Assembly (NCBI GenBank): GCA_945877365.1 | Contig: CAMCRV010000002.1 | Coordinates: 1-64,000 of the forward strand | Source of the DNA: an uncultured Clostridia bacterium | GTDB taxonomy: Bacteria > Bacillota > Clostridia > Oscillospirales > Oscillospiraceae | Direction: 5' to 3' | Length of the DNA: 64,000 bases | In this document: one piece after another, positions 18,412 through 21,001 of the stretch | Numbering within the stretch: position 1 is the first letter of the stretch | Layout of the letters: every line of letters begins with the position of its first letter | Notes under the pieces: generated by a model | The model's input: only the letters and a program-made list of their open reading frames with translations | Database searches by the model: none | Told to the model about the DNA's origin: nothing | Program-made: the position numbers and the translations under genes

Positions 18412-19635
18412 TTAGCCCAGATAGTCGTTGAAGTCGACAGGAGCCAGCAGGATGGTGTAGTAGTTGTCGAAGGTGGTGCCTTCGCTGTTGGTGAAGTTGG
18501 CGATCTTGGCACCTTCAACCTTGGCATTCAGCATTTCGGCCAGCTTGGCAGAGTCGTTTCTCTCGGTGATGGTGCCCTCAGCGTAGGCCTTGGCGTACTC
18601 AACACCCACCTCGATGATGGTCATAGCAACGGGGGAAGCCCAGGTGGAGAAGCGGCCGACAGCGCCATGCTCATTCAGCTTGGCAGCGATCTGCTTCAGA
18701 GCCTCGGTGTCGTCACCGCCCAGCTCCAGCTCGAGACCCAGAGTAGCGGGGAAGGCATGGTAGGGGCTGGGGCAGCAGGGCTGGGGATAGTAAGCGTTGG
18801 GCTCATCCAGGCAGGCAGCCTGCAGAGAGGGCTGCATACCACAGTTGGTGGTGAAGAAGGCAACCTTCTTGCCCTCATACTTGGCCAGCTGCTGGGGGAC
18901 ATCCTCCAGAATGAACTGCTGGGAAGCGGACAGGCCAGCCTCAGCGGTGGGGTCGGGAGCGGTGACATCAACCAGCTGGATGCCCAGAGCGTCAGCGTTC
19001 TCCTGCAGCAGGTTGTGACGGCCAACGATCAGCTCCATAGCCATGTGACGGGGGAAGGAGTAGTGGATGAACACATCAATGCCCCACTTTGCGCAGGTCT
19101 CCATGATGGTGTCGCCCTGAGCGACTTCGTCAGCGTACATGACAATGTCAGCAGCGGCGGAGATAACGGCGGGATCTTCCTGAGGAGTGCCGGCGATCAG
19201 CAGGATGTCGTCGCGGCCCATCTCACGAACCTTGTCGAAGCCAGCCTTTGCGCCGGGAACAGCCTGGCACATGACAATGGCCTTAACATCGGGGTCGGAA
19301 GCGAAGGAGACGATCTGGGAAACGGTGGTCTCCATCTCGGACATGAAGTTGTCGGGGTAGGTAGCAGTGACAATGTGCTCGGGGCCGTAGGTGGCCAGAG
19401 CCTTCTCAGCAGCGCGGAACTCCTCCTCGCCCTGAGAGACGGTGCCGGTCAGAATGGCGACCTTCCAGTTGTCGGAGCCGGCGGCCTCAGCAACAGCGGC
19501 AGCGGTGCTCTCAACGGGGGCAGCAGCGGGAGCCTCGGTGGCGGCGGGTGCAGCGGGAGCCTCAGTCTTGGCGCCGCAGCCGAACAGGCCCAGAGCCAGA
19601 GCGAGGACCAGCAGCAAGCTAATCATCTTTTTCAT
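18412..19635 (-). CDS. DUF3798 domain lipoprotein, presumed ABC substrate-binding protein
   Basis: A 407-residue exported lipoprotein. The signal peptide ends in the lipobox LGLFGCG (cysteine near residue 20), then an Ala/Pro/Glu linker runs to about residue 52. The mature part begins NWKVAILTGTVSQGEEEFR, as in periplasmic-binding folds, and contains a Cys/Pro-rich segment YYPQPCCPSPYHAFPATLG. I assign it to the DUF3798 family, whose ligand is not established. It heads an operon with the ATPase and two permeases, so a binding-protein role is the natural reading. It has its own promoter and a strong AAGGAGG site. Confidence 0.82.
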   Translation of the reverse strand: MKKMISLLLVLALALGLFGCGAKTEAPAAPAATEAPAAAPVESTAAAVAEAAGSDNWKVAILTGTVSQGEEEFRAAEKALATYGPEHIVTATYPDNFMSEMETTVSQIVSFASDPDVKAIVMCQAVPGAKAGFDKVREMGRDDILLIAGTPQEDPAVISAAADIVMYADEVAQGDTIMETCAKWGIDVFIHYSFPRHMAMELIVGRHNLLQENADALGIQLVDVTAPDPTAEAGLSASQQFILEDVPQQLAKYEGKKVAFFTTNCGMQPSLQAACLDEPNAYYPQPCCPSPYHAFPATLGLELELGGDDTEALKQIAAKLNEHGAVGRFSTWASPVAMTIIEVGVEYAKAYAEGTITERNDSAKLAEMLNAKVEGAKIANFTNSEGTTFDNYYTILLAPVDFNDYLG

Positions 19636-20232: not shown

Positions 20233-20760
20233 GTCGAACACCAAATGGTGTTGGAACTTTTGTGGTGGGGGAGGACGGATTCGGTGCTGTCTCTCCCGAT
20301 GGGAGAGACATAATGTGTCATGCCCGTCCAGCCGGGCATGAGCCATCGTCCACCGGACGATGGCAATTTCTGGTTCGAATCCGTCCTTAAATACAAAAAT
20401 TCCAACACCAAACGGTGTTGGAATCTTTGTGGTGGGGGAGGACGGATTCGGTGCTGTCTCTCCCGATGGGAGAGACATAATGTGTCATGCCCGTCCAGCC
20501 GGGCATGAGCCATCGTCCACCGGACGATGGCAATTTCTGGTTCGAATCCGTCCTTAAATACAAAAATTCCAACACCAAACGGTGTTGGAATCTTTGTGGT
20601 GGGGGAGGACGGATTCGGTGCTGTCTCTCCCGATGGGAGAGACATAATGTGTCATGCCCGTCCAGCCGGGCATGAGCCATCGTCCACCGGACGATGGCAA
20701 TATATGGTTCGAATCCGTCCTTAAATACAAAAATTCCAACACCAAATGGTGTTGGAACTT
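20233..20760 (-). repeat. Tandem array of 167-bp cloverleaf units behind tRNA-Tyr
   Basis: Three almost identical units of exactly 167 bp (hairpins starting at 20233, 20400 and 20567) plus a fourth terminator hairpin at 20734. Each unit holds a terminator hairpin (TTCCAACACC with complement), a copy of the last 21 nt of tRNA-Tyr including CCA, and a 114-nt cloverleaf: an 11-bp outer stem (GGACGGATTCG / CGAATCCGTCC) enclosing three hairpins. In the third unit these are 20623-20643, 20653-20674 and 20677-20697, with outer arms 20607-20617 and 20710-20720. The left-most terminator copy is partly decayed. Copies differ only at a few bases. It codes for no convincing protein. Confidence 0.93.
20734..20757 (-). 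terminator. Terminator of the tRNA-Thr/tRNA-Tyr transcript
   Basis: Perfect stem TTCCAACACCA / TGGTGTTGGAA, followed on the minus strand by TTTTTGTATTT. It lies 6 nt after the CCA end of tRNA-Tyr. The same hairpin recurs in each tandem unit. Confidence 0.88.
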
Positions 20761-20763
20761 TTG

Positions 20764-20848
20764 TGGTGGGGGAGGACGGATTCGAACCATCGAAGCGAAA
20801 CGCAGCAGATTTACAGTCTGTCCCCTTTGGCCACTCGGGAACTCCCCC
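20764..20848 (-). tRNA. tRNA-Tyr (anticodon GTA)
   Basis: An 85-nt class II tRNA with encoded CCA. The acceptor stem is GGGGGAG / CTCCCCC, the anticodon loop reads ACTGTAAAT, a long variable arm (TGCGTTTCGCTTCGA region) is present as expected for Tyr, and the T arm is GATGG-TTCGAAT-CCGTC. It is the second gene of a two-tRNA transcript. Confidence 0.96.
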
Positions 20849-20877: not shown

Positions 20878-20953
20878 TGGAGCCGGTAGACGGACTTGAA
20901 CCCCCGACCTACTGATTACAAATCAGTTGCTCTACCGACTGAGCTATACCGGC
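20878..20953 (-). tRNA. tRNA-Thr (anticodon TGT)
   Basis: A 76-nt tRNA with encoded CCA. The acceptor stem is GCCGGTA / TACCGGC, the D arm carries AGCTCAGTCGGTAGAGC, the anticodon loop reads ATTTGTAAT and the T loop GTTCAAGTC. It is upstream of tRNA-Tyr with a 29-bp gap. Confidence 0.96.
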
Positions 20954-20973: not shown

Positions 20974-21001
20974 ATTATAGCATGACAACGGCATTTGTCA
21001 A
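20974..21001 (-). promoter_or_regulatory. Promoter of the tRNA-Thr/tRNA-Tyr unit
   Basis: Perfect TTGACA (21001-20996) and TATAAT (20979-20974) with a 16-bp spacer on the minus strand, about 20 bp before tRNA-Thr. Confidence 0.88.

Follow-up and report, generated by a model that had tools for sequence, protein, structure and literature searches.

Structured tRNA-linked repeats with locally matched arms behind tRNA genes in gut Oscillospiraceae

INTRODUCTION

The closest described systems are the tRNA-linked repeats (TLRs) of Escherichia coli. According to PMC8144298, which names Egan and Landy 1978 and Rudd 1999 as sources, these repeats have been known since 1978, the last 18–19 bp of each are identical to the 3′ end of the upstream gene, and they were without known function until the RrA/B/F study of 2021. 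The same study describes RrA, RrB and RrF as structured elements that follow a first terminator, lie between two terminators and finish with a copy of the upstream gene's 3′ terminus; these RNAs arise by read-through, are released by processing and interact with Hfq and CsrA. It also describes 3′ETS-leuZ, an RNA from the trailer of a tRNA precursor that acts as a sponge for sRNAs. Phages and islands that integrate at tRNA genes likewise insert in the gene, leave it whole and duplicate its 3′ end.

Here we analysed an array of 167-bp repeats in a 64,000-nt stretch of DNA from an uncultured Clostridia bacterium, the whole of which is called the window below. Like the TLRs, among them RtT of the tyrT operon (RF00391), the repeats lie directly behind a tRNA gene, end in a copy of the 3′ end of that gene, are rich in hairpins and occur as one to several tandem units, with a unit of 178 bp at tyrT versus 167 bp here. 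They differ in frequency, PMC8144298 giving 22 TLRs at ten loci (one to five at each) against about 16–17 of the 38 surveyed tRNA genes here. RrA, RrB and RrF differ in lying between T1 and T2 of rRNA operons and in being linked to 5S rRNA, and 3′ETS-leuZ has neither a tail copy nor tandem units. Integrating phages and islands bring an integrase and a tail of their own, whereas here about 140 bp without any gene are involved and both tails are those of the host; since the 167-bp units are too small for an integrase and both tails are local, a reading as an integrase-mobilized island fails.

We conclude that the elements form a real family of tRNA-bound structured repeats, a variant of the TLRs and not a new category; new relative to E. 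coli are the different phylum, the unusual pervasiveness and the sharp boundaries in the T-loop. Our preferred reading, to which we give a probability of roughly 55%, is that structured cassettes insert at the T-loops of tRNA genes, move from one such gene to another and owe their transcription to read-through. A second family of tRNA-linked repeats, unrelated in sequence and in another phylum, opens their origin and function to comparative study, which is aided by many copies and by many empty and filled sites per genus, and it offers new material on how such repeats arise and act. Three points can be tested: that the arms are bounded at C56 and T54, that the inverted arm matches the local tRNA, and that cores are exchanged from one tRNA to another.

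RESULTS AND DISCUSSION

Layout of the array in the window

The array spans positions 20237–20784 and consists of three near-identical 167-bp units and one partial unit (TRF: period 167, 3.3 copies, 97% matches), which bears out the three units behind tRNA-Tyr reported in a sequence-only reading of this DNA. That reading had placed the array behind a tRNA operon; it is indeed downstream on the strand of the genes, with the correction that both tRNA genes, tRNA-Thr and tRNA-Tyr, lie on the minus strand, as do all features described below. A promoter-like site of the operon (TTGACA, 16 nt, TATAAT) at 20974–21001 agrees with the consensus at 12 of 12 positions and is called by consensus match only, in a scan that found two such sites where 1.3 were expected. 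It is followed by tRNA-Thr(tgt) at 20878–20953 and by an intact tRNA-Tyr(gta) at 20764–20848, both found by ARAGORN and Rfam. The original 3′ tail of tRNA-Tyr, from C56 to A76 by sequence and boundary positions, occupies 20764–20784, and this gene is the source of both arms of the units.

Each unit runs, on the minus strand, from a terminator-type hairpin directly after the CCA through an inverted copy of the tRNA-Tyr T-arm (hereafter the antitail) and three hairpins, H1, H2 and H3, to the 21 3′-terminal nt of tRNA-Tyr (C56 to A76) repeated in direct orientation. In unit 1, the terminator-type hairpin starts at the CCA end (20727–20764, an inverted repeat), the antitail is the reverse complement of the T-arm (20710–20721, from inverted repeats), and H1 with triloop GGT (20676–20698), H2 with loop GCTGGA (20652–20675) and H3 (20622–20644) were placed by the predicted fold, together with the sequence for H1 and H2 and with inverted repeats for H1 and H3. 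The closing tail copy, identified by sequence, lies at 20597–20617, and 12 nt of it pair with the antitail. Altogether 18 nt of this unit (20704–20721) are complementary to 20773–20790 in tRNA-Tyr, a length that is in part fortuitous, as the consensus CCAT of the elements is matched by this tRNA. Unit 2 comprises a terminator-type hairpin (inverted repeat, 20560–20597) and a structured part (20430–20556, with antitail 20543–20554, hairpins and tail copy 20430–20450, supported by inverted repeats), and unit 3 a terminator-type hairpin (inverted repeat, 20393–20430) and a structured part (20263–20389, with antitail 20376–20387, hairpins and tail copy 20263–20283, supported by the fold). Both structured parts score 126.5 bits with R1, a covariance model that we built from eight units. 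A truncated terminator hairpin after the last tail copy (20234–20263, by inverted repeat and sequence) ends the array.

The outer stem described before is present and perfect, with 12 pairs rather than 11 (20272–20283 with 20376–20387, 92 nt between), and it encloses three perfect hairpins of 10, 9 and 10 pairs, where lengths of 8–9 bp had been given. What had been missed is that the stem is not an independent sequence, its 3′ arm lying within the tail copy of tRNA-Tyr and its 5′ arm being the inverted T-arm, and that tRNA-linked repeats share this layout. A single unit is predicted to fold into exactly the four-way structure that had been proposed (−73.9 kcal/mol, z −8.99, none of 200 shuffles equally good). 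The terminator that each unit was said to carry was also recovered as three terminator-type inverted repeats. A consensus scan listed terminator-like sites at these hairpins on the plus strand only; the minus-strand hairpin is followed by TTTTTG, but the stem takes in the T-run, a possible reason for the scan having missed it.

At the gathering score, Rfam reported only the two tRNAs in the window and no family for the units. A protein-coding reading, for which open reading frames of up to 151 aa cross the repeats, was rejected on the compensatory changes in the hairpins and the lack of a conserved frame in view, and a CRISPR reading was likewise rejected. The gene downstream of the array (18412–19635, minus strand) encodes a DUF3798 protein (PF12683, E 5.6e-106).

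Position behind tRNA genes and local origin of both arms

The searches with R1 gave 186 matches, or 171 after overlapping antisense matches were dropped, and deduplication left 151 elements. Of these, 109 lay downstream of a same-strand tRNA gene at a distance of up to 900 nt, including 83 within 80 nt, and 26 isoacceptors were represented; of the other 42 elements, 21 had less than 300 nt of upstream sequence. Position is thus not random with respect to tRNA genes, in line with the link to tRNA genes that the sequence-only reading had proposed to count. The same counts bear on the REP type of mobile palindrome, which that reading had also considered and which we took as REP- or BIME-like palindromes moved by a RAYT (Y1) transposase: the elements are short, palindromic, repeated and non-coding, as such a family would be, but they sit at tRNA tails instead of being scattered, and Y1_Tnp (PF01797), present in 76 of 136 genomes of the genus, was found in none of four genomes rich in elements (G000, G078, G011 and G118, with 34, 18, 14 and 20 matches, respectively). 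We regard this explanation as extremely improbable.

A survey independent of the model covered nearly all tRNA genes of three genomes, one tRNA-Gly per genome being dropped because its T-loop was off pattern. A local tail copy (at least 14 of 17 matches) was found behind 16 of 38, 15 of 40 and 13 of 41 tRNAs, compared with 0.1% when the tails of other tRNAs were used (n = 13,076), and a local inverted T-arm (at least 10 of 12) behind 16 of 38, 19 of 40 and 16 of 41, compared with 12.4% for the other tails (n = 13,076). For the direct copy, the tail of the element's own tRNA beat the best of 25 other isoacceptors in 81 of the 109 elements. Our first, unanchored score for the antitail ranked the local tRNA first in 43 of 109 (mean 12.7 for local versus 12.6 for the best other) and was uninformative because the T-loop is common to all tRNAs, so it was replaced by a test anchored on the T-loop. 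With this test, usable for 106 of the 109 elements, the antitail matched 3.92 of five T-stem positions of the local tRNA, against a permutation mean of 2.58 and a maximum of 3.08 in 2000 permutations, and T-loop positions 57–60 were complemented exactly in 89 of 93 elements, 13 of the 106 having been dropped for want of a right copy.

Both arms begin abruptly within the T-loop. Among 103 direct copies chosen at 14 of 17 matches or more, identity was 0.99 at C56 and 0.35 at position 55, and faded to 0.67 at A76. Among 102 units chosen for at least six of seven matches at positions 54–60, complementarity of the antitail was 1.00 at position 54, 0.55 at 53 and 0.27 at 52, and outward it fell from 0.95 at 62 to 0.85 at 63 and 0.55 at 65, and to near chance in most of the acceptor.

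Where T-stem positions of the tail copy had drifted from the tRNA (n = 16), the antitail followed the tRNA at 12, the copy at two and neither at two, and hence nothing visible suggests that the closing stem is preserved in order to pair with the copy. Selection for that stem explains the pattern less well than does copying, or ongoing correction, from the tRNA. The pattern would also be explained if the elements were a passive by-product of replication, formed by template switching at terminator hairpins and T-arms, with quasipalindrome correction keeping the hairpins paired without selection on an RNA. Every part of an element is a hairpin or a local copy, and the antitail is local, as this account expects. 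Constant loops and linkers over 26 isoacceptors nevertheless need a shared ancestor, the elements were found in two genera only among 394 genomes of the order (in a search of low sensitivity), and no inverted copy extends into the tRNA body except behind tRNA-Pro(ggg), the mean local score being 7.2 against 7.1 in controls. On this balance we consider a passive by-product rather improbable. An origin by fold-back of a whole tRNA was tried and rejected: the inverted body copy behind tRNA-Pro(ggg) in G078 and G011 was modest (scores 14 and 11), other loci reached 14 and 13, and one control reached 53, presumably from a neighbouring gene. The unit at these two tRNA-Pro(ggg) loci (L240 and L269) is built differently, seemingly with inverted pieces of the anticodon and D-arms.

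Inner hairpins under constraint

Pairing in the inner hairpins persists although the sequence differs between elements. Both partners had changed in 17 of 31 pairs in a set of eight sequences, and covariation was 0.456, against 0.145 in shuffled and at most 0.089 in slid alignments; the number of further pair types was not unusual (126 of 500). Across the 151 elements, which were found and aligned with a structure model that favours pairing, the 5′ arm of H1 occurred in 65 versions, the pairs of H1 being Watson-Crick in 97.1% and GU in 1.2%, and the Watson-Crick share was 90.7% in H2 and 82.6% in the closing stem. The loops were far more constant, with the triloop GGT of H1 in 111 elements and the loop GCTNGA of H2 in 96. 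The hairpins therefore evolve with compensatory changes, whose absence from relatives had been named in advance as evidence against a structured RNA. Intermediates with G-U outnumbered those with A-C in the model-fitted alignment (32 versus 17 distinct helices, P 0.022; H1 alone, P 0.34), which weakly suggests that the folded strand is the tRNA-sense strand.

Such constraint would be expected of a functional RNA that is made by read-through and acts in trans, as an sRNA, a protein sponge or an antisense or decoy matched to the tRNA, with the copies kept for the use of the cell. The tRNA-like decoy RNA suggested in the sequence-only reading comes near to the E. coli case of an RNA made by read-through, and by analogy such a product could exist here. 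The strong signal of compensatory change in H1 and H2, together with their constant loops, argues for this explanation, as do the complementarity of the antitail to the cognate T-arm (in the window the partly fortuitous 18 nt) and the binding of Hfq and CsrA reported for the E. coli RNAs in PMC8144298. Arguing against it, presence at a given locus varies between species, many tRNAs have no cassette, several types of core exist, and a stringent-response role of the E. coli tyrT repeat has been withdrawn, as stated in PMC8144298. We judge a trans-acting RNA maintained for the cell to be unlikely.

Filled and empty sites

The preferred reading, insertion of cassettes at T-loops, is best illustrated at tRNA-Tyr, where one genome has a filled site (G009, L006) and another an empty one (G030, L014), with flanks that align over 1268 columns (81%). 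The DNA right after the CCA of the empty gene aligns with the DNA right after the direct copy of the filled gene. The filled site thus has 139 bp extra together with a whole tRNA and a new terminator, the old tail and terminator being pushed downstream, where the displaced tail has mutated; the same picture would equally be given by loss through exchange between the two tails. The locus of the window is empty in G004, which shares its flank, and further similar empty sites were found. Taken together, our comparisons show what appears to be inserted DNA with sharp T-loop boundaries, a whole tRNA and two arms that match the local tRNA. The earlier suggestion of a recombination substrate was partly right, in that units seem to be inserted at, or lost from, tRNA T-loops.

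The tRNA-Thr(ggt) locus was not counted as a clean pair of empty and filled sites, since its shared flank holds a phage integrase and the shared tail and terminator may belong to an island. Here the integrase gene follows the tail copy in G000 and the tRNA itself in G078 (L131, L220), and the tail copy may have served as an attachment site. This arrangement would suit a role of the elements as landing pads or decoy attachment sites, whose tail copies divert integrating phages and islands from the tRNA, and several elements lie behind a tRNA 3′ half produced by a split at the anticodon loop, which resembles a phage attachment site. Such splits, however, fall in the anticodon loop of the tRNA and not in the tail copy, so that the tRNA is not spared, and a decoy would need neither a hairpin core nor an inverted arm. 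We therefore hold a decoy role to be very unlikely. The cassettes behind a tRNA 3′ half that starts in the anticodon loop are at L174 (4800–5400), L187 (100–650) and L215 (500–1100, a viral contig), and another lies behind a shorter 3′ part of a tRNA at L210 (450–1000); in these four cases the integration of a phage or island apparently divided the tRNA gene and left the tail and cassette at the far end.

Seven cassettes inside operons, behind tRNA-Thr, tRNA-Arg(tct) and tRNA-Gly, had the antitail 16–20 nt after the CCA, and six of the seven lacked a T-run; in the 93 other cassettes a T-run was present in 84 and the median distance was 48 nt. Three further units flagged as operon-internal departed from the 16–20 nt pattern.

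Movement of cores between tRNA genes

Near-identical cores occur behind different tRNAs. For 30 of 50 cores in the three surveyed genomes, the closest relative was found behind another tRNA of the same genome, against 17.3 expected; for three of 50 it was found in another genome behind the same tRNA, against 1.2 expected. This within-genome pattern was not repeated in a second clustering on more genomes, where the 62 nearest neighbours were in another genome behind another tRNA (38), in another genome behind the same tRNA (19) or in the same genome behind another tRNA (5); this wider set is partly redundant, some genomes being present twice under two labels, which favours the second class. Both inheritance in place and movement of cores seem to occur.

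The sharpest case is given by tRNA-Ala(cgc) of G013 and tRNA-Lys(ttt) of G015, whose cassettes share the same terminator and the same core with an odd seven-base loop, and whose antitails differ at the single position where the two tRNAs differ. Over 13 pairs of similar cores behind different tRNAs, five of which involve one element (L209), the antitail followed its own tRNA at 27 positions, that of the partner at four and neither at seven. The terminator moved with the core in only one of the 13 pairs, and in the wider set there was a slight excess of similar terminators for the same tRNA.

A cassette is made up of a terminator hairpin, an antitail covering tRNA positions 54 to about 65, a core of two or three hairpins and a tail copy from C56 to A76. 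On the reading that we prefer, cores would pass between the tRNA genes of a genome, with the new host tRNA serving as template for their flanks. Template switching from one T-loop sequence to another may be the mechanism; as the T-loop sequence is common to nearly all tRNAs, this could work without a dedicated enzyme. Tandem units would then multiply by unequal exchange between tail copies. By analogy with RrA/B/F of E. coli, an RNA would be made by read-through from the tRNA promoter, and it is predicted to fold as a closed, multi-branched unit in which the antitail and the tail copy mask each other, so that the tRNA would be left undisturbed by the cassette. The benefit for the cassette, that its tRNA stays whole, is clear enough.

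Comparison with E. coli K-12

Among 55 tRNA and 5S genes of E. coli K-12, surveyed in 15 stretches, a tail copy was found behind 13. The terminator comes first in lysV, lysQ, proK and rrnB, followed by the hairpins and then the tail, and in the lysT, argQ and proK repeats the predicted fold is closed by a stem of local antitail and tail. The local antitail beat all non-local tails in two of the 13, was near the top in five more and gave no signal in six. RtT was found in 4680 of 5426 E. coli genomes. The RF00391 model gave no match at E ≤ 1 in four genomes, and E. coli was the sole positive of 14 controls; RtT as a homologue was accordingly rejected, the one match in the window scoring 21.4 bits against a cut-off of 45 and being absent from the sister units.

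A broader and more tentative idea, possible but in our view doubtful, is that the long-known tRNA-linked repeats and the present elements are members of one class of gene-less mobile cassettes, which would dock at T-loops, rewrite both arms to match each new tRNA, stay harmless, and have at least two origins, one in Enterobacteria and one in gut Oscillospiraceae.

Spread in the genus and beyond

The search of relatives with a covariance model, as the sequence-only reading had advised, gave R1 matches in 87 of 101 sampled genomes of the genus (E ≤ 0.01). The 34 matches in the source genome (G000) correspond to 33 places, one being the antisense of another. By our tally, 24 of these places lie behind an intact tRNA gene on the same strand, covering 17 kinds of tRNA; six are at the ends or starts of contigs, and three have tRNA-Val tails on one contig (C13) with no tRNA in view. 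The number of units per locus is three in the window and one to three at the other loci inspected. Outside the genus, R1 matched a single other genus, represented by two genomes, in a set of 394 from the order; that search scored nine candidates per genome and gave five positives, three of them from the home genus, and its sensitivity was low, since three home-genus genomes scored nothing. Among 41 genomes of the family, which included one further genome of the home genus, none but G000 had a match. An exact pattern recovered 42 stretches in a named genome collection, assigned to Oscillospiraceae, Clostridia, Clostridiales, Eubacteriales or Bacillota, apart from one labelled ‘uncultured bacterium’; one of the 42 is from Candidatus Faecousia faecipullorum. 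Our assignment of the home genus is to Faecousia or its near vicinity. In a partial literature library, consisting mostly of titles, no title described such elements in Oscillospiraceae, and they are not described in the accessible parts of two surveys of structured RNAs (PMC8040213 and PMC2864571).

Five contigs of the source genome (C24, C28, C11, C50 and C44) end or start in or near these arrays, which indicates that short-read assemblies break there and that copy numbers are lower bounds. A practical point is that the units in or near which contigs of this genome so often end carry tRNA tails.

A second type of core, GAAAGGC ... CCGGNGG ... GCCGTGG, was seen at six loci (L006, L007, L009, L244, L249 and L252) in the same frame of tail, terminator and antitail behind Tyr, Ser and His tRNAs, and R1 finds it weakly or not at all. 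A gene ahead of the elements with Val tails in L133 was considered as a recombinase and dropped, as it matched no Pfam family. Finally, tail copies also occur alone in short tandem runs (L258, 1–700; L215, 500–1100), as four copies spaced 65 nt apart behind tRNA-Val(cac) and as units of about 31 nt behind the end of a tRNA-Lys.
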